Origin: an uncultured Desulfosporosinus sp.
GTDB lineage: Bacteria > Bacillota > Desulfitobacteriia > Desulfitobacteriales > Desulfitobacteriaceae
Length of the DNA: 32,431 nucleotides
Direction: 5' to 3'
NCBI GenBank assembly: GCA_927405585.1
Contig: CAKMJS010000080.1
Coordinates: forward strand, 1-32,431
Shown: piece by piece, positions 130-24,744 of the stretch
How positions within the stretch are numbered: the first letter of the stretch is position 1
How the letters are laid out: the number at the start of each line of letters is the position of its first letter
The notes under the pieces: model-generated
Told to the model about the DNA's origin: nothing
What the model saw: only the letters and a program-made list of their open reading frames with translations
The model's database searches: none
Position numbers and translations under genes: made by a program

Positions 130-738
130 ATGAGCATAACAATTCGTCTGGAAAACGAAAACCATTATCAAGAAGTAGAGCATTTAACACGAGAAGCTTT
201 TTGGGATCTCTATCACCCAGGATGTAGTGAGCATCTGATCGTTCACAAAATCCGCAAGGGTTCCGCTTTTATACCCGAACTGGATTTTGTAGCTTTACTG
301 GACGATAAAATTGTCGGCAATATTATTTATACCAAATCAACCGTTGTGGACAAAGATAACACTGAGCATGAGGTGATAACCTTCGGTCCAATAAGTGTTT
401 TACCGTCTTGTCAAAAGCAAGGAATTGGATCAGCTCTGATTGCACATACCAAAAAGCTGGCTCAAACTATGGGATATAAAGCCATTATCATCTTCGGAAA
501 TCCTGCCTACTATCACCGGTTTGGTTTTGAAAATGCAGCAAACTTTGAGATAAGTACTGCCGAAGGAGCAAATTTTGAAGCATTCATGGCGTTAGAGTTG
601 TATAAAGGCGGTCTGCAAGGCATAACTGGAAGATTCCATGCAGATCCTGTCTTTCATGTCAATCAAGAGGAACTAGAATCTTTTGAAAAGAACTTCCCCT
701 ATAAAGAAAAACACGTTACTGATACGCAGTTCAAGTAA
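130..738 (+). CDS. GNAT-family N-acetyltransferase
   Basis: A 202-residue soluble protein of the GNAT superfamily, which moves an acetyl group from acetyl-CoA to an amine; the acceptor cannot be told from the sequence. The N-terminal half carries the usual opening strand and helix (IRLENENHYQEVEHLTREAFWDL), and the acetyl-CoA pyrophosphate-binding motif A is visible as GPISVLPSCQKQGIGSALI around residues 95-113, followed by the ALGF-like block YYHRFGFENAANF near residues 140-152. It resembles the YhbS type. I chose the ATG at 130 because GAAAGGAAG precedes it at proper distance; an in-frame start at 46 would lie inside the preceding MutS2-like tail and has no ribosome binding site. Single gene; a loose hairpin follows at 752-795. 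Confidence 0.88.
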   Translation: MSITIRLENENHYQEVEHLTREAFWDLYHPGCSEHLIVHKIRKGSAFIPELDFVALLDDKIVGNIIYTKSTVVDKDNTEHEVITFGPISVLPSCQKQGIGSALIAHTKKLAQTMGYKAIIIFGNPAYYHRFGFENAANFEISTAEGANFEAFMALELYKGGLQGITGRFHADPVFHVNQEELESFEKNFPYKEKHVTDTQFK

Positions 739-9550: not shown

Positions 9551-9580
9551 GAAGAGCAGGTTAACCTGCTCTTCTTTTTA
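9551..9580 (+). terminator. Rho-independent terminator of the oxidoreductase gene
   Basis: GAAGAGCAGG TTAA CCTGCTCTTC is a perfect 10-bp stem with a 4-base loop, followed directly by TTTTTA, 29 bases after the stop codon. Confidence 0.92.
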
Positions 9581-9830: not shown

Positions 9831-9879
9831 AAAAATGGCATTATACTAAAATAGTGTAATCTTAAAAGGTGGAGTATTG

Positions 9880-9915
9880 ATGTCGGTTCTGTCTGTTACG
9901 GTGGGTCTCAACTAA
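9880..9915 (+). CDS. Candidate leader peptide (11 aa) of the MutS2-like gene
   Basis: AAAAGGTGGAGTATTG precedes ATG 9880, giving a well-spaced ribosome binding site, and the frame encodes MSVLSVTVGLN and a TAA. The stop codon lies in the 5' arm of the first of a series of RNA hairpins (9909-9924). A short, well-translated frame overlapping a hairpin and followed by terminator-like structures is the arrangement of translation-controlled attenuators. The peptide itself resembles nothing I know. A possible -10 element TATACT lies at 9842-9847 without a convincing -35. Confidence 0.5.
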   Translation: MSVLSVTVGLN

Positions 9916-10125
9916 ATATAGTTGCAAAAGGCGTTCGATTTACGGGAAGTATCCCGTTTGTTGTGTTGCCCTTTTGAAAACATACCTAACAGATTGCTTC
10001 TATACTTCCAATTATTGATGCGTGACAGGGTGTGCTTGTCGCGTTGTTTTTATGTTGAGATTTTGCCCGCAGGAGCATTTTGCACTTTTACAGGTGTAGT
10101 ATGTTTGATGGCGGGCTTTTTATTT
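9909..10125 (+). promoter_or_regulatory. Attenuator-like structured leader in front of the MutS2-like gene
   Basis: Successive stems can be read: CAACTA/TAGTTG (9909-9924, tetraloop); CAAAAGG/CCTTTTG (9925-9931 with 9970-9976) enclosing ACGGGA/TCCCGT (9942-9947 with 9952-9957); GCGTGACAG/TTGTCGCGT with wobbles (10020-10028 with 10036-10044) followed by TGTTTTTA; and GCCCGC/GCGGGC (10065-10070 with 10111-10116) with an inner stem, followed by TTTTTATTT. The last two have the form of intrinsic terminators ahead of the coding start at 10154. Together with the 11-codon frame this suggests conditional readthrough. It matches no riboswitch class I recognise. Confidence 0.5.
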
Positions 10126-10153
10126 ATTAATTTTGTTATAAGGAGATACCCAA

Positions 10154-11015
10154 ATGAAAAATTATATAACTCTGGAATTTGATGAAATCCTAAAGCAACT
10201 TGCAGATAAAGCACAGTCTAATATTGTTAAAGCTCGCTATCTCGCACTGGTTCCTTCATTAAACGAGGCGGAAGTAATACGGCGCCTGGACGAAACAACC
10301 CAGGCCAAAAGAATTATTGAACAGATTGGCACCCCGCCACTTCCCACAATGACGGATTTGCAGAAGGTCATTGACCTGATAGCCATTGATGCAATTCTGA
10401 TGCCTGATCAGATTGCCCATGTGACCTCCTTCCTTGTATCCTGCCGAAGAATAAAAGCCTACCTTGAGAAAGCCAAGTCCACAGATATCATCATCGCCTG
10501 GTACGGTGAATCCATCAACGAATTATCCGAGCTTGAAAAAGAATATTGCGGAAAGGCTGGGTATGCAACAACACATGCTAATACGCGCTCACGAAGCTGC
10601 CTATGGAAATTCTACAAAGCAATACGGAGATGCGCTACAGCAAAGTAATCCTTTACCTGATAAGGCCGCTATTGTACCGCAGATTGTCAAACAAGAAGCA
10701 CCCAATGCAAAAGTGCAGTCTCGCAGCGATACATTTAATCTTGGTGACAGTGTTATCGTCTATCCTCAAAAGGAAACCGGCATTATCTACTCGCGTTCAA
10801 ACGCTAAGGGCGAAATTGGCGTTCAGATTAAGGGCAAGAAAACCCTGATAAACCATAAACGGCTAAAATTGCAGATAGCAGCCAGTGAACTCTACCCCGA
10901 TGACTATGATTTTTCTATCATCTTTGACAGTGTGGCCAACCGGAAAGCCCGCCATCAGCTGGAGAAAGGTCCTTACGATGGGTATGTGATTGTTAATGAG
11001 TGGGATGGAAAATGA
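10154..11015 (+). pseudogene. MutS2-like protein, internally deleted and frameshifted
   Basis: ATAAGGAGAT precedes ATG 10154. The first frame (to about 10541) gives the N-terminal core/lever part of a MutS2-type protein: TLEFDEILKQLADKAQS, ALVPSLNEAEVIRRLDETTQA, GTPPLPTMTDLQKVIDL. The frame from about 10541 gives the end of the ATPase region and beyond: IAERLGMQQHMLIRAHEAAYG, then a KOW-like domain FNLGDSVIVYPQKETG...GEIGVQIKGKK, and the tail ELYPDDYDFSIIFDSVANRKARHQLEKG. There is no Smr domain. The Walker A/B ATPase domain is entirely absent: from the family size I estimate about 340 codons lost, with the two ends joined out of frame. MutS2 proteins act in recombination control and, in Bacillus, on stalled ribosomes; this copy cannot work as an ATPase. 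A paralogue ends at position 65. Confidence 0.8.
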
Positions 11016-13889: not shown

Positions 13890-15173
13890 TCAACCAGCCT
13901 TAGTTTCTTGGATTTCTACAATTACTTTCTGGATCCGGTGATTCCGAACTTCCTCAATATAAATTTTGAAGTCTCCAAACACCATGGTTTCTCCCTTTTT
14001 AGGTAGATACCCTAAATTTTCCGAAACCCACCCACTTAACGTATTACAAGAAGTTTCAATTGAATACACATTTAAAACATCACAAAATGTATCAATTGAT
14101 ATTCCTCCACTTAAACGAATTTTATTCTCGCTAATATTTTCAACTAGGATTTCTTTTTCTTCATAATCATCATTTTCATCCCAAATTTCTCCAACAATTT
14201 CTTCCAAAATGTCCTCAATTGAAATTATACCTAAAGTTCCTCCATACTCGTCTAAAACAATAGCTAGGTGAACTTTTCTTTTCTGTAATTCTTTTAAGAG
14301 ATTTGAAATTTTAACCGATGAAATTACAAAATAAGGTTTCCTAAGAATTATTCCTATGTCAAATATATTATGCTGTACATATTGTTCAAAGAAATCTCTG
14401 TGCGAAATAACACCAACTATATTGTCGGTTGTCCCGTCGTATATAGGCATCCGTGAATACTTTTCTTGAATAAAGATATCTTTTATCTGATCTATCGTTG
14501 AATTGATAGATACCGCTACCATATCTGGTCTTGGCGTTAAGATGTCTTTAACGACAATATCATCAAACTCAATCGCATTATGAATTAATTCTTTTTCTTG
14601 AGTAAGAAATTTTCCTTCTTCTTCACCAATTTCAACTAATGCTTTAACGTCTTCATCCGTAACAGTTGATTCTTCATGGTTTGATCCAATAACCTTTGCA
14701 ACACCTACCCTTAATTTAACAAAAAGCCAGGTAATAGGATGAAAGACTATCATAACGATCCCTAAAGAAGCTGATACAGTCATTAAAAACTTTTCTGCAT
14801 ATGGTTTTGCTAAAGATTTTGGTAAAACTTCACCAAATGTTAAAACTAAAATCGTTATGACTACTGTTGTAACAAAAAGTGTACTACCGCTATCCCCAAA
14901 CATATCTGTTGCAATCTTAGTAGCAATAGTGGCCATGGCAATATTTACAATGTTATTGCCAATTAAGAGGGTCGATAAGGTTTGATCGAAATTTTTCATC
15001 ATCTTTAACGAGCGATCGATTTTTACACCATCATTTTGTGCTTGGTTTCGCAATTTGACCTTACTTGCACTTGTAAGTGCCGTTTCTGAGCCTGAAAAAT
15101 AACCTGATAGTATTAATAATGCCCCTAATAGAATGATCCAGTCATAGGGTATACTGTCCAAAACTTTTATCAC
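13890..15173 (-). CDS. CNNM/CorC-type transporter with DUF21, CBS pair and CorC_HlyC domain
   Basis: 427 residues. Order: an N-terminal DUF21 (CNNM) domain with three to four membrane helices (about 1-190, including YFSGSETALTSASKVKL and LLIGNNIVNIAMA), a CBS pair (about 205-330, DILTPRPDMVAVSI ... IVLDEYGGTLGIISIEDILEEIVGEI in parts) and the C-terminal CorC_HlyC domain (about 345-423). These proteins are linked to Mg2+/Co2+ efflux or Mg2+ transport; the CBS pair binds Mg-ATP. The frame opens with GTG 15173, but GGAGTG overlaps that codon; a TTG at 15161 is eleven bases behind the site and is an alternative start. It is divergent from a paralogue at 15380 across a 206-base AT-rich gap. Confidence 0.9.
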   Translation of the reverse strand: MIKVLDSIPYDWIILLGALLILSGYFSGSETALTSASKVKLRNQAQNDGVKIDRSLKMMKNFDQTLSTLLIGNNIVNIAMATIATKIATDMFGDSGSTLFVTTVVITILVLTFGEVLPKSLAKPYAEKFLMTVSASLGIVMIVFHPITWLFVKLRVGVAKVIGSNHEESTVTDEDVKALVEIGEEEGKFLTQEKELIHNAIEFDDIVVKDILTPRPDMVAVSINSTIDQIKDIFIQEKYSRMPIYDGTTDNIVGVISHRDFFEQYVQHNIFDIGIILRKPYFVISSVKISNLLKELQKRKVHLAIVLDEYGGTLGIISIEDILEEIVGEIWDENDDYEEKEILVENISENKIRLSGGISIDTFCDVLNVYSIETSCNTLSGWVSENLGYLPKKGETMVFGDFKIYIEEVRNHRIQKVIVEIQETKAG

Positions 15174-15379
15174 ACTCCAAAGTTAATATTAAATTGCATT
15201 CAAGTTCTAATATTAGCATAATAATTACGACTTTTCAATTTTGGCGAGTCATGAAAAAGCGAATGCGTGTATTCAATTTTCAATCATAGGGCACTATGTC
15301 TTGTAAGGACAAAATCGTTTACCATGCAAAAAAACCTAAGCGGATTTGTAAAGTGAAAATTGAGGAGATTAAAAATTAA

Positions 15380-16666
15380 ATGCTTACGATTAATCTATTG
15401 ATTATTGTTATCCTTATCATTGCAACAGCATTTTTTGTCGCTACTGAGTTTGCTATTGTTAAGCTTAGACCGAGCCGTGTGGATCAAATGGTATTGGAAG
15501 GTAGGAAAAATGCGCTAGCAATACAAAAAGTGACAAGTAATTTGGACGGTTATTTATCTGCCTGTCAGTTAGGAATCACCGTTACTGCTTTAGGATTGGG
15601 GATGCTTGGTAAACCGACAGTTGAGACGATTCTTTATCCAGTTTTCGAGCAAACGAATATGCCAGCTGAAGCTGTATCCCTAATATCTTATACTATAGCA
15701 TTTTCTTTAATAACATTCTTACATGTGGTCATAGGAGAACTGGCACCCAAATCATTGGCGATCCAAAAGGCAGAAATAGTGAGTATTGTGTGTGCAAGAC
15801 CCATTATAATGTTTTATAAAATAATGTATCCTTTTATTTGGGTTTTGAATGGTTCAGCCAATCAGTTCATACGATTATTTGGTCTAAAACCTGCTAAAGA
15901 GCACGAAGAAGCACATTCTGAAGAAGAATTAAGGATCATTTTATCTGAAAGTTATAAATGCGGTAAAATCAATCAATCGGAATATGGATATGTCAATAAA
16001 ATTTTTGCTTTTGACGATTTAATGGCTAAGGAAATTATGGTTCCTAGAACGGATATGGTTTGTTTAGATCGTTTAAATTCTCTTGAAAAAAATGAAACAA
16101 TTATGCGTGAAGAACAATATACCCGATTTCCCATTATCCACGAGGATAAAGATCATATTATTGGTTTGATCAACACAAAAAAATACTTCATGAACTGTGA
16201 AAAGGGAACAATTCTTGATCTACAGAGCATCATGCAATCCGCTTTGACTGCACCAGAAACTATTCGAGTTAAATCACTATTAAAAAAAATGCAGAAAAAT
16301 GAAGTGCAAATGGCTATTTTGCTGGATGAGTATGGCGGAACTTCTGGTCTCATTACAATTGAAGATATATTGGAGGAAATTGTTGGTGAAATTCGCGATG
16401 AATTCGACGTAGATGAAAATCAAGAGTTTGAAATCATAGATCAAAATCACATTATTGTAGATGGAAAAGTGTCTTTATCCAACATATTTAACCATTTTAG
16501 TGTTGAATTTGAAACGGAAGGCTTGGATACAATAGGCGGATGGTTGAGCTCGCAAAATGCAACTTTCAAAAAGGACGATATTTTGGAAAAAGAAGGTTTA
16601 ACGTTTACTGTCCTTGAGAAGCAGCATCATCGAATTAAACGAGTGAGAATTCAAAGGAATCCATAA
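15380..16666 (+). CDS. CNNM/CorC-type transporter, second paralogue
   Basis: 428 residues with the same architecture as the divergent gene: DUF21 membrane domain (about 1-190; ATAFFVATEFAIVKLRPSRV, LSACQLGITVTALGLGML, HVVIGELAPKSLAIQKA), CBS pair (about 205-325; EIMVPRTDMVCLD, AILLDEYGGTSGLITIEDIL) and a CorC_HlyC domain (about 340-425). The DUF21 part is of the YhdP/YrkA type (GITVTALGLGMLG), different from the GNNIVN type of the minus-strand gene, so these are two old lineages and not a recent duplication. GAGGAG stands twelve bases ahead of the ATG, rather far. Probable role in divalent cation homeostasis. Confidence 0.9.
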   Translation: MLTINLLIIVILIIATAFFVATEFAIVKLRPSRVDQMVLEGRKNALAIQKVTSNLDGYLSACQLGITVTALGLGMLGKPTVETILYPVFEQTNMPAEAVSLISYTIAFSLITFLHVVIGELAPKSLAIQKAEIVSIVCARPIIMFYKIMYPFIWVLNGSANQFIRLFGLKPAKEHEEAHSEEELRIILSESYKCGKINQSEYGYVNKIFAFDDLMAKEIMVPRTDMVCLDRLNSLEKNETIMREEQYTRFPIIHEDKDHIIGLINTKKYFMNCEKGTILDLQSIMQSALTAPETIRVKSLLKKMQKNEVQMAILLDEYGGTSGLITIEDILEEIVGEIRDEFDVDENQEFEIIDQNHIIVDGKVSLSNIFNHFSVEFETEGLDTIGGWLSSQNATFKKDDILEKEGLTFTVLEKQHHRIKRVRIQRNP

Positions 16667-16736
16667 CTACATGATCTCCCAGGAAGTGTGACCTCGTGGC
16701 AACGCATAATCAAGAGTACTGTTCAAAAGCTGTACA

Positions 16737-16764
16737 TTGTCAGTTAAGTAACCTGTGCTATAAT
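16737..16764 (+). promoter_or_regulatory. Sigma-A-type promoter
   Basis: TTGTCA (16737-16742) and TATAAT (16759-16764) are separated by 16 bases. This is the best vegetative promoter I see in the window. It drives a transcript that would meet a terminator at 16872-16915, about 100 bases after the expected start. Confidence 0.7.
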
Positions 16765-16769
16765 TAGTT

Positions 16770-16920
16770 CATCAAAATAATCTGCAAATGTTAATCCTGA
16801 AGAGACAGATGAAGTAGTAAGGTGTGTTGGCTATCGGAAATAAACAAGCGATTAAAAGTAAGCTATTTTGTAAGGACATAATGAACCGTTAAAACAGGTT
16901 CATTATGTCCTTTTATTTTT
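16770..16920 (+). ncRNA. Short leader RNA or sRNA ending in a strong terminator
   Basis: Between the promoter and the terminator lie about 100 bases with no reading frame. ATCTG...CAGAT (about 16782-16815) could close an upstream stem. The terminator is AAGGACATAATGAACC paired perfectly with GGTTCATTATGTCCTT (16872-16887 with 16897-16912), followed by TTATTTTT. A promoter, a short untranslated RNA and a terminator directly ahead of a cation-transporter remnant is the layout of a riboswitch or attenuator. It does not match the M-box, yybP-ykoY or NiCo consensus as far as I can judge by eye. It could equally be a free small RNA. Confidence 0.5.
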
Positions 16921-16927
16921 TACATGA

Positions 16928-17494
16928 ATGATGATCGATATCGGTGATGAAAAAGGAACAATATATAAAACTGAACATCGGATGATTGACAATGTTCTCG
17001 AGTTTAATAATAAGACTGTTTCGGACATTATGACACACAGAACTGATATCGTTGCCCTTCCTCTTGGAGCAAGCCTTGATGAAACTCTTGATCTAATTAA
17101 TAAAGAGAAGTATTCGAGAATACCCGTATATAATGATAATATTGACGATATTATAGGATTGTTGTACTCAAAAGACATGATTCAGTATCTCAGAGATAAT
17201 TGTAACCATGAGAATTTTTCTTTGAAGAAACTACTCAGACTACCCTATTTCGTACCGGCTTCAAAAAGAACCGACGAACTGTTTAACGAACTCCAACGGA
17301 ACAGGATGCATATAGCGATTATTATCGATGAATATGGAGGAACAGCAGGAATTGCTACGTTAGAAGATTTACTTGAGGAGATTGTTGGAGATATATTTGA
17401 CGAAGACGATGAAGAAGAAACGTTTTTTGATAAACTCGATGAAAACACATTCATGATCGATGGTTCTGCAAGTCTGGAAGATGTTCAGGATTAG
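16928..17494 (+). pseudogene. CNNM/CorC-type transporter remnant lacking both ends
   Basis: The frame begins in the middle of the family, MMIDIGDEKGTIYKTEHRMI, the linker after the DUF21 domain, and continues through the CBS pair (DIMTHRTDIVALPL; IIIDEYGGTAGIATLEDLL) to DGSASLEDVQD, where a TAG cuts off the C-terminal CorC_HlyC domain. The whole membrane domain is missing; its place is taken by the promoter-leader-terminator unit at 16737-16920. The ATGs at 16928/16931 follow the terminator's T-tract and have no ribosome binding site. Third member of the family in this cluster, and most likely not functional. Confidence 0.8.
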
Positions 17495-19686: not shown

Positions 19687-22299
19687 CTAAATACTCTCCT
19701 GCTTCAAAGCGTCCACAATATTCTGCTTCTTAACTTTAGTGCTGGAATACAGCATTGCCGAGCTGACGATAGCAAACACAGCAATGATGACATAACCAAT
19801 ACTCGCCCAAGGGAGTGTAAAGCCATAGCTAAAGCTGTTCATCAAAGATCGGTGGATGGCATACATAGCCACGACGCTGAGCGGAAGTCCGTAAACTAAC
19901 GACTTAATCCCATAAAAAATACTTTCATAGTTGATCATTTTATTAAAGCCTTGGGGTGTCATTCCCACAGACTTCAACATCGCAAATTCCCGTTTGCGCA
20001 GGGAAATGCTCGTCGAGATCGTATTGAAAATGTTGGCAATCGAGATTGCCGTAATTAAGACGATAAAGCCATAGGTAAATACGGATATTAACAGGATCAT
20101 CTGCTCATCGTTTTGTCGAACCTGATACAGATTATTAACATATACGTTCCGTTCTTTCATATCCTCGATGGCATGTTGAGTAGCCATTGGATCCGTACTT
20201 TTCAAAAAGAGTTTGGTTTGGAAGTTGGCAATCTCCTGATCACCCATCACTTGATCCAGGACTTCTTCGGAGACAATGATCGTTAACCCTCCGACCACTG
20301 CTGGTAAAACACCCATCGGCGCTTGATCTGTCAAGGCGGCGATTTCTAATGGACTCAAGGAGGTCTCTACGCCTGTCTCCGAAGTCCCCGATTTAATGTA
20401 GAAGAGCTCAATGCTTTGACCAATCTCAGAATTAATGGCCTTTGTTTCCACATACTTCCCCGCATCCCTATCCTCATAGCGGATCGTCTCGATCACAATC
20501 CCAGTCAGCTTATCGAGATTGACGAGTGCTTCGTAATCAGCACCTACCTCTTTGGCGTAGACTTTGAGATTTTCCTCATTTAAAGCATGCAGATTAAGAT
20601 AGTAAGGATAGTTTCCGTTCTTAAGGATGCTCGGGTCCTCCGTTACCCGCTTTTGTAACTCCTTAGCGATCTCTGCTTCCTTGATCCAAGCGTTCACACT
20701 CAGTTCTTTCATAACGCTATACTCGCTGACATCCGGCAGAGAAGCAATGGAGTTAAGCAACTGAACATCAGTTTCAGAATACTCATGGTCTATGGATACT
20801 TCAATATCATAATTCAAACCCTCCTGAGAGAGCTCCACTGATTTTACTAAATTGGCGGTGAAAAAGGATACAGCTAAAAACAAGACAATACTTATGACCA
20901 GTGAAAAGACCGTCGCTTGGTACCTGCGCTTGTTTCGTTTCAAGTTTTTCAAGCCAATTTCTGCTTCGATTCCGAAGAGCTTTCGAATCAATTTCGAAGT
21001 TTTAACGACTTTACCGGTCAGCTTAACCTCGGTTGTTTGCCGAATCGCATCAATCGCTGAAATTTTAGAGGCTTTTTTGGCGGGCCAATACGTGGAAATG
21101 AAGATAGTCAGCATGGAAACTGCGCAGGCAATCACGATCGATACTGGAGTCACAGAGACTCTAAACGATTCCGTCACGTTTAAAGTTCCATCAATGATCG
21201 GGTTAATGAACCAAAACGTAATCCCCATTCCGCCCAGACCTGCCAGGATTCCAATCGGGATACTGATCAATCCAATGATCGCCCCCTCAAAGAATACCGA
21301 GTTTCTCTTCTGCCGTTTCGTTGCTCCCACACTCGAAAGCATCCCTAAATGACGGGACCGTTCGGACACAGAAATCGCGAAGGCATTATAGATTAAGGAA
21401 ACCGAGCCAATCATGATGATCGCCATAATGACCGCCGAGAGCGAATAAAGGGTGCTCTGCAAATTATCGTTATTCGTCACACCATAAAAGCGCAGTAACG
21501 CATTATTGAACTTGACTTCAGCGATGTTGTGTTGCTTCGCCAAAGTTTCGGCATGAGTATAAAGGGAGCGCTGAACTTTCTTTAAGACAACCATGGCCTG
21601 AACGGTCTCCCGATCCTGGGAACCGATCATAGTTTCATCAAGATAGCTGAGGATGGTATACCCCGGCGCCCAGGTTGGTTCCCAGGTCGGACGTTCTATG
21701 ATTCCTACCACGGTGTAACGTTGGGTTGTTTGAACGATTAAGGTTTCGGCGATTGCACCTTTCACCATTTGTAATCGGTTATTCTGGGTAAGGGGTTGTT
21801 TCTCACCTTCCGCTGCGAACCGTTCGCCAATCTCCAGTTCTAGGCGATCACCGATCTTATAGGCGACTTTGGCACTCTCCGCCATTTCTTCCGAGATGAT
21901 CACTTCATGGTCGGCTTGGGGAAGTCGCCCTTCACTCAGTTGAATGGGAAATTGTTCAAATCCTTGGGCATTATACTCTTTAATAAACACATAGGGCTTA
22001 TTTTTATTTTGGGCCCCTTCTAAGAGGGCATAACCACGATCTCTGGAAATGACCACGGTCTTCGTTGCTTGATCGTTTTTTATCCCCTCGAACTGTTCTT
22101 TGTTGACATCTTGGTACTGGACATGCCATTCTCCTTGACTTGCAATCGTCTGCCTCTGCATTAATTCCATGTAGGCGACACTGATCGTGGCCACCGCCAT
22201 CACCATGGCCACTGAAATAATCACGCCCAGGATGGTCACCAGGGTTCGTCGTTTATTCTGCCTCAGATGTCGGATCGTGAGTTGATTGATAATATTCAT
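19687..22299 (-). CDS. ABC transporter permease with two FtsX domains
   Basis: 870 residues. An N-terminal membrane helix (about 17-40), a large extracytoplasmic domain (40-270), an FtsX core (about 280-410, ending in WPAKKASKISAIDAIR), a second helix near 455, a second extracytoplasmic domain (480-720) and a second FtsX core (about 740-860, LRKREFAMLKSVGM... KKQNIVDALK). This double-FtsX layout is that of MacB/VexP/BceB-like exporters and mechanotransmitters, which handle peptides or lipoproteins or sense envelope damage. The ATG overlaps the stop codon of the ATPase gene by four bases, so translation is coupled. The substrate cannot be told, but an adjacent short-loop histidine kinase suggests a peptide-antibiotic or envelope-stress response. 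Confidence 0.9.
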   Translation of the reverse strand: MNIINQLTIRHLRQNKRRTLVTILGVIISVAMVMAVATISVAYMELMQRQTIASQGEWHVQYQDVNKEQFEGIKNDQATKTVVISRDRGYALLEGAQNKNKPYVFIKEYNAQGFEQFPIQLSEGRLPQADHEVIISEEMAESAKVAYKIGDRLELEIGERFAAEGEKQPLTQNNRLQMVKGAIAETLIVQTTQRYTVVGIIERPTWEPTWAPGYTILSYLDETMIGSQDRETVQAMVVLKKVQRSLYTHAETLAKQHNIAEVKFNNALLRFYGVTNNDNLQSTLYSLSAVIMAIIMIGSVSLIYNAFAISVSERSRHLGMLSSVGATKRQKRNSVFFEGAIIGLISIPIGILAGLGGMGITFWFINPIIDGTLNVTESFRVSVTPVSIVIACAVSMLTIFISTYWPAKKASKISAIDAIRQTTEVKLTGKVVKTSKLIRKLFGIEAEIGLKNLKRNKRRYQATVFSLVISIVLFLAVSFFTANLVKSVELSQEGLNYDIEVSIDHEYSETDVQLLNSIASLPDVSEYSVMKELSVNAWIKEAEIAKELQKRVTEDPSILKNGNYPYYLNLHALNEENLKVYAKEVGADYEALVNLDKLTGIVIETIRYEDRDAGKYVETKAINSEIGQSIELFYIKSGTSETGVETSLSPLEIAALTDQAPMGVLPAVVGGLTIIVSEEVLDQVMGDQEIANFQTKLFLKSTDPMATQHAIEDMKERNVYVNNLYQVRQNDEQMILLISVFTYGFIVLITAISIANIFNTISTSISLRKREFAMLKSVGMTPQGFNKMINYESIFYGIKSLVYGLPLSVVAMYAIHRSLMNSFSYGFTLPWASIGYVIIAVFAIVSSAMLYSSTKVKKQNIVDALKQESI

Positions 22300-22979
22300 C
22301 GCCGAAGCACCTCATCCTTGGTGATCCGCCCATCATCGATGGTCATGATTCTGTCAGCCTGCAAGGCGATACGCTCGTCGTGAGTAATTACGATCAGAGT
22401 TTGACGAAGGGATTTATTGAACATTTTGAGCAATTCAACGATTTCATAACTGCTTTTACTATCCAGATTTCCCGTCGGTTCATCGGCCAACATGAGGGCA
22501 GGATTACTGATCAGCGCTCTCCCGATCGACACTCGTTGCTGTTGCCCGCCTGACAGCTGATTGGGCAGATGGTTTAAGCGATCCGCCAGACCCAATGTGT
22601 TGATAATTTGCTCAAGCTGCCCTTTTTCGGCCTTGCGACCGTCCAATAATAACGGCAGCGTAATATTCTCCTCGACACTCAAAACAGGGATCAGGTTATA
22701 AAATTGATAGATCAGACCGATTTGCCGACGCCGAAAGATGGCCAACTTGGTTTCGTCCAGGGCATAAATATCCGTATTCTCAATCAACACCTTGCCACTC
22801 GTTGGCGTATCCACACCCCCTAAGGTATGCAGTAGGGTTGATTTTCCAGAGCCTGAGGGTCCAATAATAGCCACAAATTCGCCTTGGTTTACCGAGAAGG
22901 ATATATTATCCAGGGCCTTGACAGCTGTTTCACCCTTCCCATAGATCTTAGACAGATTTTCCACCTTTAATAGTTCCAT
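22296..22979 (-). CDS. ABC transporter ATP-binding protein (MacB/LolD/BceA type)
   Basis: 227 residues with all nucleotide-binding motifs: Walker A GPSGSGKST (40-48), Q-loop near YQFYNLIP (91-98), signature LSGGQQQR (142-149), Walker B LMLADEPTG (162-170), D-loop NLDSKSS and H-loop VITHD (about 197-201). The length and the FYNLIPVLSVEENI phrase are typical of ATPases that pair with FtsX-type permeases. It is followed with a 4-base overlap by that permease. AAAAGGAGTGAG precedes the ATG. It stands 81 bases behind the histidine kinase gene; that gap contains direct repeats that may be the target of the adjacent response regulator. Confidence 0.95.
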   Translation of the reverse strand: MELLKVENLSKIYGKGETAVKALDNISFSVNQGEFVAIIGPSGSGKSTLLHTLGGVDTPTSGKVLIENTDIYALDETKLAIFRRRQIGLIYQFYNLIPVLSVEENITLPLLLDGRKAEKGQLEQIINTLGLADRLNHLPNQLSGGQQQRVSIGRALISNPALMLADEPTGNLDSKSSYEIVELLKMFNKSLRQTLIVITHDERIALQADRIMTIDDGRITKDEVLRR

Positions 22980-23028
22980 ACTAACTCACTCCTTTTCCTC
23001 ACTAAGGCTAGTATATCTGTCTAAGATT

Positions 23029-23064
23029 ACTCTAGAGTGACACTCTGGGTGACAGTTTTGTCAC
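23029..23064 (-). promoter_or_regulatory. Direct repeats, probable response-regulator operator ahead of the ABC genes
   Basis: Read on the minus strand, TGTCAC occurs at 23054-23049 and again at 23042-23037, each followed by C(C/T)C...AGAG, giving a 12-base direct repeat of the type OmpR-family regulators bind (TGTCACCCAGAG, TGTCACTCTAGAG). A GTGACA (23064-23059) facing the first copy makes a short palindrome with it. The block overlaps the end of the kinase gene and lies 60-80 bases ahead of the ATPase start. Confidence 0.5.
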
Positions 23065-24062
23065 ACAACCCCTTTATAGAATTTAATCGTGAACTCAGTG
23101 CCTTGATCTTCTTCACTGATCACTTCAATCCGACCGCCTTGGTTTTGGACAATGCTTTGGGACATGGCTAGGCCGATCCCGATACTGTCATGGTGAGCAT
23201 TTTTCCCCTTGTAAAATCGATGAAAGATGTGGGGTAAGTCCTCCTTACGGATACCCTGACCATTGTCGAAGAGTTTGATAGTCGTGGATAGTGGGGTTTC
23301 TCTAAAGCTAATCCCAATGGTTCCACCAGAAGGGGTATGCTCAATGCAGTTTTTTATTATGTTAGTCAGTGCTTCGGAGGACCAATAATAATCGCCTATA
23401 AAGCTTGTCCGGTCATCTCCGCTGATTTCTAGAGTTTGCTCTTTTATTTCCATAGGGATTCGCAGGTGCTCAAGGGATCGATGGATCAGGTCTTTGACCT
23501 GCACAGTCTCCTTCTTAAACTCAATGCTGCCAGCATCAATCTTCGACAGTTTGAGTAAGGATGACACAAGCCATTGCAGTCGTTCAAGCTGTGAGTGAAT
23601 ATTTTGCGTGAATTCCATACGCTTATCCTGGGGTAGGTTTTCGTCACGGATTAGGTCTGTCATCACAAACATCGAGGTGATGGGCGTTTTCAGCTGATGA
23701 GAAATATCCGAAATCGAATCCGCTAGATAATGCTTGTCCTTTTTTAGGAGACGGGCTTGCTCACGGAGGGTTACAGTGACTTTATAGAGTTCACTTTTGA
23801 GAATGCTCAGCTCACCCTCATCACTATCTCTAATATCTAAGGAGTACTCGCCCCCTGCAATCCGCTTCAGATATTGGGATAACTCGTCAAGTTGCTGATA
23901 TCTCCATCTTGTAAAAATGAGCGATGCACCACACATGAAAAGCAGCGCTAAGAAGGCAATGAGTCCTGAGATGGGATCAATATAAAAGCAGGCAGCCGAC
24001 CCTAGGACCAAAATTATCGCCATCAAGGTAATATATCGCTTGATTTCTTGATTTCGCAACAC
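23061..24062 (-). CDS. Sensor histidine kinase with short extracytoplasmic loop
   Basis: 333 residues. Two closely spaced N-terminal membrane helices (about 10-28 and 30-50, separated by only a few residues, FYIDP), a HAMP-like linker (52-105, YLKRIAGGEYSLDIRD), the H-box SDISHQLKTPITSM (His near 124), the N-box IIKNCIEHTPSGG (about 237-249) and the G-boxes DNGQGIRKEDLPHIFHRFYKG and IGIGLAMSQSIV. The lack of an extracytoplasmic sensor domain marks it as an intramembrane-sensing type, which often takes its signal from a partner ABC transporter, here encoded just downstream. One base separates it from the response regulator gene, so the two are co-translated. Confidence 0.94.
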   Translation of the reverse strand: MLRNQEIKRYITLMAIILVLGSAACFYIDPISGLIAFLALLFMCGASLIFTRWRYQQLDELSQYLKRIAGGEYSLDIRDSDEGELSILKSELYKVTVTLREQARLLKKDKHYLADSISDISHQLKTPITSMFVMTDLIRDENLPQDKRMEFTQNIHSQLERLQWLVSSLLKLSKIDAGSIEFKKETVQVKDLIHRSLEHLRIPMEIKEQTLEISGDDRTSFIGDYYWSSEALTNIIKNCIEHTPSGGTIGISFRETPLSTTIKLFDNGQGIRKEDLPHIFHRFYKGKNAHHDSIGIGLAMSQSIVQNQGGRIEVISEEDQGTEFTIKFYKGVV

Positions 24063-24063
24063 C

Positions 24064-24744
24064 TTAGCTACCCCCTATATAGCCAAGTCCACGCACGGTT
24101 TTGATGATCGAGGGGTTTTGACTATCCTCTTCAATCTTTTCACGCAGACGCTTAATATAGACCGTTAACGTGTTGTCATTGACAAAATCTCCCGCGTAAT
24201 CCCATAAACCTTCTAAAAGCTGATGACGGCTCAGGACTTGTCCCTCGTGATTGGCAAAGATTAAGAGCAAGCGATACTCCAGCGAGGTTAAAATGATCTC
24301 CTGCTCCCCTTTATACACCTTGGCCTGTGCCATATCGATCTTTAAGGGACCAAACTTATTGATCATGGTTTTGCCAGAGTCCGACTTGTCATACCTGCGC
24401 GTCACAGATTTAATGCGCGAAAGCAACTCTCTGATTCGAAACGGCTTGGTGATATAATCATCCGCTCCCATATCGAGTCCCATCACGACATTCACCTCAT
24501 CATCGATGGCGGTTAAAAATAGGACTGGGATATCTTCTTTGGCCTTAATGATCTTGCAAAGGTCGTAGCCATTGCCATCGGGCAGGGATAAATCCAGGAT
24601 CGCTAAGTCAAAGCGAGTTTCCTGGATCAACCTTTTGGCTGACTCGACATTTAAGCAGTGCGTTACAAGATACCCCTCCTGGGTTAGTGAATAGCAAAGC
24701 CCTGAGGCAATGATTCGATCGTCTTCAACAAAGAGTATTTTCAT
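24064..24744 (-). CDS. OmpR-family response regulator
   Basis: 226 residues: receiver domain (1-120) with the acidic pair EDD (7-9), phosphoacceptor Asp51 in AILDLSLPDG, conserved Thr in LFLTA and Lys in ITKPF; then a winged-helix DNA-binding domain (about 130-225, GPLKIDMAQAKVYKGEQEIILT ... VNDNTLTVYIKRLREKIE in parts, closing RGLGYIGG). AAGGAG lies ten bases ahead of the ATG. First gene of the four-gene operon; likely targets are the repeats ahead of the ABC ATPase gene. Confidence 0.95.
   Translation of the reverse strand: MKILFVEDDRIIASGLCYSLTQEGYLVTHCLNVESAKRLIQETRFDLAILDLSLPDGNGYDLCKIIKAKEDIPVLFLTAIDDEVNVVMGLDMGADDYITKPFRIRELLSRIKSVTRRYDKSDSGKTMINKFGPLKIDMAQAKVYKGEQEIILTSLEYRLLLIFANHEGQVLSRHQLLEGLWDYAGDFVNDNTLTVYIKRLREKIEEDSQNPSIIKTVRGLGYIGGS

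Follow-up and report, generated by a model that had tools for sequence, protein, structure and literature searches.

A putative ribosome-mediated transcription attenuator upstream of an Smr-less MutS2-like gene family

The leader and the decayed gene of the window

The window, that is the whole stretch of DNA analysed here, comprises 32,431 nucleotides of contig CAKMJS010000080.1 from an uncultured Desulfosporosinus sp. It carries the remains of a MutS2-like gene, preceded by a leader with a short upstream ORF (uORF) (Table 1). A sequence-only reading of the window had proposed a Shine-Dalgarno (SD) stretch, a leader ORF, a hairpin at its stop codon, a compound stem and two terminators, and each of these elements was found at the position given for it; in the compound stem, leader codons (9891-9902) pair with 9984-9993. 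The 312-nt leader folds at -94.7 kcal/mol (z -4.63), and 0 of 100 shuffles folded as well. A terminator scan of the window returned three sites, against 0.5 expected from shuffles: one at 9551-9574, standing behind the previous gene, a second at 10020 and a third, weak, at 9942. The terminator at 10065 was missed because its loop exceeds the length permitted in the scan.

The same reading had taken the local gene copy to be decayed and a paralogue to end at position 65, and both points hold. Compared with the intact copy at locus L055, to which the window is 91% identical over 716 nt, 1,064 nt are absent near position 10543. The deletion takes the whole ATPase; its length is not a multiple of 3 and the remainder is out of frame. 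Similarity to the L055 copy starts only at window position 9831, so that the window's copy has lost the consensus -35 that intact ones carry; the best promoter match left in the window is 8/12. On this comparison the window's MutS2-like copy is dead. The second copy, cut off by the contig start, retains 22 residues including the stop region (82% identity, match 3-68). A GNAT gene lies directly 3' of the MutS2-like gene in four loci (L055, L059, L062, L068), and likewise at 1-738 of the window.

Two other groups of genes in the window were noticed by eye. At 13890-17494 three membrane proteins of the CBS type (TlyC/CorC-like) lie side by side, the last of them only a fragment. An ABC transporter with a large permease, a histidine kinase and a response regulator, which resemble peptide-antibiotic sensing modules, occupy 19687-24744.

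Table 1. Coordinates of the leader, the MutS2-like gene and the second copy in the window.
Feature	Position	Strand	Evidence or remark
-10 promoter hexamer TATACT of the leader	9842-9847	+	-35 of intact copies not recognisable in the window
Shine-Dalgarno stretch of the leader ORF, AAAAGGTGG	9864-9872	+	kept among close relatives in alignment A2
Leader ORF (uORF) MSVLSVTVGLN*, 11 codons	9880-9915	+	homologous uORFs at other loci
Anti-antiterminator helix, 5' strand (leader codons), predicted	9891-9902	+	fold, swap and covariation tests
Hairpin spanning the leader stop codon, CAACTAAATATAGTTG	9909-9924	+	98.3% of cells paired in the leader alignment
Second internal hairpin, within the compound stem	9926-9975	+	fold, RNAalifold
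Anti-antiterminator helix, 3' strand, ACCTAACAGA, predicted	9984-9993	+	fold, swap and covariation tests
Antiterminator helix, 5' strand, CAGATTGCTTC, predicted; overlaps the anti-antiterminator	9990-10000	+	swap test, masked folds
Terminator 1 (stem 10020-10044, T tract after)	10020-10051	+	terminator scan
Terminator 2 (GCCCGC...GCGGGC and T tract)	10065-10121	+	absent from the terminator scan
Antiterminator helix, 3' strand, GGAGCATTTTG, predicted; inside the 5' side of terminator 2	10072-10082	+	swap test, masked folds
Ribosome binding site of the MutS2-like gene	10140-10148	+	sequence
Decayed Smr-less MutS2-like gene, N-terminal part	10154-10543	+	TIGR01069, 8.7e-16
MutS2-like gene, C-terminal part (KOW-like region, YPxDYDF tail), past deletion and frameshift	10543-11015	+	
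Second MutS2-like copy, C-terminal end, truncated by the contig start	3-65	+	
GNAT acetyltransferase directly behind the second MutS2-like copy	130-738	+	start codon chosen within ORF 46-738

Leader conservation and predicted switch helices

The upstream regions of intact Smr-less homologues bore out the expectation that the short frame and the stems would recur there: the frame is conserved, the stems are paired and some covariation is present. A plausible SD-led short ORF was seen in all 50 leaders (49 loci and the window) under a loose ending rule that was set after some of them had been seen; L058, L068 and L088 (less than 300 nt upstream) and L090 and L104 (no gene start) were left out of the leader counts. 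Under a generic criterion (SD-led ORF of 7-11 codons ending in Asn) the leader was detected within 640 nt in 44 of 49 homologues, versus 9 of 161 other ORFs within 500 nt. The comparison ORFs were of at least 200 aa, came from the same loci and were called mechanically, so that not all are genes; some loci are near-copies. The pattern had been derived without 17 of the homologues; an SD-led Asn-ending ORF of 6-13 codons stands within 650 nt of 15 of these and of 0 of 12 canonical MutS2 genes. A leader common to canonical MutS2 genes was thus rejected, as was a leader peculiar to the decayed copy, since it recurs before intact copies elsewhere.

The leader peptides fall into the types MSVLSVMVIIN, LLNVSVMVIFN, MSDLSVKVNNN, MSVNVLN and MLGVVLN. 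An Asn-ending ORF was not in the expected place in six distant homologues, several of which show other short frames when read by eye (LSDLVL, VSVASI and VSAVGTK, for example), and the Asn-ending ORF of L155 at -599 was not counted as a leader. Of 43 leaders (the window's and those of 42 loci), 38 have a promoter match of at least 10/12 (no shuffle control), usually 30-35 nt before the ORF. Within 400 nt upstream, at least two terminators stand before 33 of 47 homologues, versus 0 of 12 canonical MutS2 genes and 3 of 93 background ORFs, and at least one before 45 of 47, 3 of 12 and 18 of 93, respectively; these background ORFs, too, were mechanical and not all genes. In two Desulfosporosinus loci (L056 and L103), about 310 nt of extra and nearly alike sequence, which may be a small mobile element, lies between terminator 2 and the gene, and the leader ORF stands at -587 and -585, versus about -275 usually.

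Searched with Rfam at gathering cut-offs, the window gave no match. In seven leader-bearing loci nine matches at E<=0.1 were obtained (tRNA, c-di-GMP-I, microRNA models and rliD), none of them at the leader, which lies at about 1501-1640 in six of these loci and at 571-709 in L192. The leader was accordingly rejected as an Rfam-known element. One of the loci, L196, has a c-di-GMP-I riboswitch match above gathering score at 2245-2327, near the leader-bearing locus.

In the Clostridia leaders, codons of the leader ORF (UCUGUNA.GGU) can pair with a downstream ACC.UNACAGA, forming a putative anti-antiterminator. The overlapping CAGAxUGCUUC can pair instead with GGAGCAUUCUG, forming a putative antiterminator; GGAGCAUUCUG lies within the 5' arm of the last terminator, GCCCGC...GCGGGC. 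In type B leaders UGCUUC/GGAGCA is replaced by UACUUC/GGAGUA. We compared the pairing of each leader with its own and with swapped partners. Thirteen of the 50 leaders had been excluded beforehand (ten of a Bacillales/Alkaliphilus/Natronincola type, and L086, L089 and L094), and L087 had no antiterminator partner, leaving 36 leaders, 34 of them distinct. Permutations as good as the real arrangement numbered 0 of 5000 for the anti-antiterminator and 29 of 5000 for the antiterminator; the permutations ignore relatedness.

RNAalifold, applied to 29 leaders, predicted the anti-antiterminator unprompted, with pair 34-171 occurring as AU (14), UA (9), UG (5) and CG (1). In this helix 96.7% of cells are paired and the covariation score is 0.164 versus 0.107 (0/500 shuffles); pairs with two-sided change (33/500 shuffles) and the number of pair types (110/500) are unremarkable. 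The double-sided switches, at pair 34-171 and from G-C to A-U in the antiterminator, may each be one event in the tree. The partner-swap and covariation tests together support the predicted helices, on few independent changes.

Predicted folds of transcripts ending before the 3' arm of terminator 2 gave the anti-antiterminator in 33 of 34 leaders and the antiterminator in none when the leader was free. With the leader ORF masked, transcripts of the same length reached six antiterminator pairs in 23 of 34 leaders; the other 11, the window's included (3.1 pairs), stayed below six. In full-length masked folds, inspected for eight leaders, it is mostly the completed terminator 2 that prevails, and the switch would therefore need cotranscriptional folding. 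The ten Bacillales/Alkaliphilus/Natronincola leaders follow the same logic with other sequences, GUUCUUAAC-stop pairing with GUUAAGAAC and AACAGCGG with CCGUGCUGUU. Nine of the ten have a usable antiterminator (no swap control); L108 has no convincing one. An unguided search of each single leader for pairing with its downstream sequence gave only a weak signal: 17 of 51 reached 10 or fewer of 200 shuffles (median z -1.1), and the controls gave 0 of 21 at 5%. Taken from comparison and prediction, and not from probing, the anti-antiterminator, the antiterminator and the terminator are mutually exclusive, and the helices as predicted fit transcription attenuation of the vmlR/hflXr kind.

The protein family and the genes behind the leader

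Intact homologues are proteins of about 640 aa with the MutS2 core, the ATPase, a KOW-like domain and a conserved tail of their own, and without Smr. That the gene is MutS2-like and lacks Smr, as had been supposed, is confirmed by two intact homologues that were scanned: TIGR01069 scores 583.8 and 579.2 bits (curated cut-off 400), and an Smr domain gave no match at E<=1. Tandem ABC-F domains are absent from these two; instead there is a single MutS domain V ATPase, whose motifs TGPNTGGKT, LSTFS-H and DE are invariant in 32 of 32 rows. In a profile search of the PDB, MutS2 bound to a collided disome (7qv3) matched best, covering query residues 2-596 over 596 positions, and in an AlphaFold2 model built from 32 sequences (pLDDT 82.4) Foldseek ranks 1-13 are all MutS2 structures. 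The KOW-like region forms beta strands in the model, and the HMM aligns to 7qv3 up to residue 684; the region's own profile found no solved KOW structure and no independent KOW match, and its weak profile matches are to the KOW part of MutS2 frames of 781-848 aa.

A tree of 66 proteins placed 54 Smr-less rows on one side of a branch and 12 canonical MutS2 proteins on the other, with support of 100/100. The Desulfosporosinus type-A protein groups with members from Oscillospiraceae, Desulfallaceae, Syntrophomonadaceae and Peptococcaceae, which suggests, as an inference from the grouping, horizontal transfer. Among 60 genomes, made up of the window's own and 59 relatives, the C-terminal part occurs in 22. 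These 22, the window's own among them, all belong to the genus, and many have it in frames of 648-733 aa; it was found in 0 of 31 relatives outside the genus, and the family is patchy. Scanning of a species-genome collection yielded 54 loci, mostly from Clostridia and Bacilli, the closest intact ones being from Desulfosporosinus.

A profile made from the last 99 residues tells the family apart from canonical MutS2. Of 398 phylum genomes, 31 gave a full match (E<=1.4e-16), a count that takes in the window's decayed copy. There were weak matches, only to the KOW part of the 781-848-aa frames, in 33 of 398; five genomes have both kinds. An Smr-bearing frame of 781-805 aa exists beside the Smr-less paralogue in all eight other genomes checked, of which five had been preselected as having both and three (G014, G080, G386) had not. 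Unlike its relative G014, the window's own genome (G000, 98.6% complete) showed no Smr domain and no canonical MutS2 ATPase.

Matches in plasmid and phage collections amounted to 98 and 35 records, of which 6 and 7 cover at least 80% of the query, all at below 60% identity. Two phage-labelled contigs with Enterococcus and Listeria hosts (L211, L212) carry distant Smr-less homologues (~35% identity) preceded by the short GTG-started frames VSVVGI and VSVAGI; in our judgement both records resemble bacterial more than phage DNA. Noticed by eye at 208-2040 of L002 was a MutS-like ATPase of 610 aa with hydrophobic stretches in its N-terminal part.

A covariance model built from the 5' part of the leader was run on 60 genus-to-order genomes and 398 phylum genomes. 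The former gave 23 matches in 21 genomes, 21 of which lie, by position, before a MutS2-like gene or its remnant. Of the other two, one precedes an ABC-2 exporter operon and one is a relic joined to a GNAT remnant (by eye). Of 13 matches in the phylum genomes, eight precede a MutS2-like gene (the window's included) and five other genes: two broken exporter-type ATPases (by eye), one GNAT gene and two methyltransferase genes. In three of the four reused leaders compared (L192, L206, L208) the helix energies are like those of the MutS2-like leaders; the antiterminator and terminator energies of L207 were excluded, a wrong hairpin having been picked.

At 571-3417 of L192 the exporter operon and, in front of it, an intact leader, MSVPSVMVRVN, are found. 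The operon's ATPase has drrA as best NCBIfam match, at 184 bits and below the model's cut-off, and with its two PF06182 permeases the operon is a candidate drug exporter. In L206 a GNAT gene like that at 130-738 of the window lies directly behind the same leader. The matches before methyltransferase genes are weak (29 bits); in L209 and L210 a related short leader, with uORF MSVIL, an TCTGTAAGG/CCTTACAGA helix and a terminator, precedes a class I methyltransferase.

Proposed mechanism, alternatives and known systems

We consider it likely, with real doubt remaining, that the leader is a ribosome-mediated transcription attenuator placed before an Smr-less MutS2 paralogue, whose product most probably binds drug-stalled ribosomes and splits or rescues them. 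The leader transcript would start at the promoter. During normal translation of the 11-codon leader, the leader codons would refold with the downstream segment into the anti-antiterminator, and terminator 2, probably together with terminator 1, would stop transcription. A ribosome stalled on the leader, with a ribosome-targeting antibiotic as the most likely cause, would cover the leader strand; the freed CAGAxUGCUUC could then pair with GGAGCAUUCUG in the 5' arm of terminator 2, and transcription would run on into the gene. The ~640-aa product would most likely bind and split or rescue drug-stalled ribosomes, as HflXr does beside HflX.

The conservation of the leader ORF and of the terminators, the promoter-like hexamers, the helices as predicted, the separate clade, the ATPase motifs and the reuse of the leader can all be read from the compared sequences. 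The stalling trigger, the drug, the activity on ribosomes and the passage of terminator 1 are inferred, and there are no induction data. The attenuation that the sequence-only reading had put forward is thereby supported, and its two further suggestions, antibiotics as inducers and action of the protein on ribosomes, remain inferences. More tentatively, and with somewhat less than an even chance of being right, the attenuator may be a portable device of Bacillota that senses a ribosome-targeting natural product and switches on not only an Smr-less MutS2, which would clear drug-stalled ribosomes without collisions, but also a drug-type ABC exporter, a GNAT acetyltransferase and a methyltransferase.

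The same attenuator might instead serve an ATPase of DNA repair or recombination, with translation stress acting merely as its inducer. Existing annotations of the family as DNA mismatch repair protein MutS or endonuclease MutS2 speak for this, as does MutS domain V, a strong Pfam match. We nevertheless regard it as unlikely: the family is closest to MutS2, described in the part of PMC10897456 available as a splitter of stalled ribosomes in B. subtilis, its profile aligns to the disome-bound MutS2 of 7qv3, and reuse of the leader with exporter, acetyltransferase and methyltransferase genes fits a drug response.

Rather improbable, too, is that the leader senses asparagine supply or the general translation rate and not antibiotics. 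The Asn codon that ends the leader ORF in 44 of 49 homologues would be expected of such a sensor, yet there are one or few Asn codons and no long run, distant homologues do without the Asn end (VSVAGI, LSDLVL and VSAVGTK, for instance), and the downstream genes are not biosynthetic. Moreover, the Asn codon of the Bacillales leaders falls within a base-paired stretch, and therefore RNA pairing alone could fix it.

A riboswitch, with the structures sensing a ligand and the short ORF incidental, is suggested by how long and strongly folded the leader is (z -4.63); we hold this to be very improbable, since an ORF of the same length class, with its SD, start and stop, is found again in both of two leader types unrelated in sequence, the sensing helix is made of the codons themselves and no Rfam match fell on the leader. 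Hardly any weight is left for a meaningless leader, composed of ordinary terminators after the upstream gene and a chance ORF at a decayed locus: the lost gene body and -35 and the separate terminator (9551-9574) ending the upstream gene count towards it, and it does hold for the present use of the window's copy, yet over 716 nt that copy shares 91% identity with the intact locus L055, and at other loci the leader stands before intact copies, which refutes it for the family.

If the attenuator reading is true, MutS2 takes its place beside HflX and ABC-F proteins, as one more ribosome factor of which a duplicate was put to use in a defence that drugs induce. Proteins now annotated as mismatch-repair MutS or endonuclease MutS2 would then form a candidate class of resistance factors. 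Nature would also have provided, in the Smr-less paralogue, a test of whether MutS2 must sense collisions in order to split ribosomes. The leader offers a ready-made biosensor whose inducer can be screened for directly, and its reuse before other genes a route to further resistance genes.

No report of an Smr-less or attenuated MutS2 was met among the literature matches listed, most subscription papers being outside their scope, and the portions of PMC5418344, PMC11633108 and PMC3200294 that were accessible do not mention one. The control scheme itself is already known, as far as the partial texts on vmlR (PMC9226507) and hflXr (PMC6310831) go. According to the former, the leader of the ABC-F gene vmlR of B. 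subtilis likewise has a short uORF, an anti-antiterminator over the uORF, an antiterminator freed by a stalled ribosome and an intrinsic terminator before the gene, and its uORF, MIN, ends in Asn as do most leaders here. It differs in having a uORF of three codons, one terminator together with an SD-sequestering hairpin, and an ABC-F gene in place of a MutS2 paralogue. The cplR and lsaA leaders, in the excerpted text of PMC10201436, show the same uORF-controlled induction, and the lsaA uORF MAGN also ends in Asn, but their uORFs have 3-4 codons and the genes are of the ABC-F type. Whether a shared drug class lies behind the Asn ends of vmlR, lsaA and the leaders described here is undecided, RNA pairing also constraining the codon.

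The protein is best compared with B. subtilis MutS2. From what could be consulted of PMC10897456, that protein has the same order of core, ATPase and KOW, the last of which the KOW-like region here may match; Smr and KOW recruit it, and its ATPase drives the splitting of ribosomes; a mutS2 deletion is hypersensitive to chloramphenicol, tetracycline and erythromycin. In that source Smr helps to recruit MutS2 to collisions, and the paralogue, which has no Smr, should therefore, by inference, be recruited differently. It further departs from B. subtilis MutS2 in its own C-terminal tail, its leader-controlled expression and its occurrence beside canonical MutS2. The hflXr/rli80 locus of Listeria monocytogenes, as covered by the available part of PMC6310831, likewise combines an extra ribosome-splitter paralogue with uORF transcription attenuation, beside a housekeeping copy. 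There the protein is of the HflX family, the uORF encodes 14 aa with an RLR macrolide motif that is not seen in the leader peptides here, and resistance has been shown for HflXr, whereas none has been shown for the MutS2-like protein. With trigger and protein function inferred, our best reading of this analysis is that the MutS2 paralogue is the MutS2 counterpart of HflXr.
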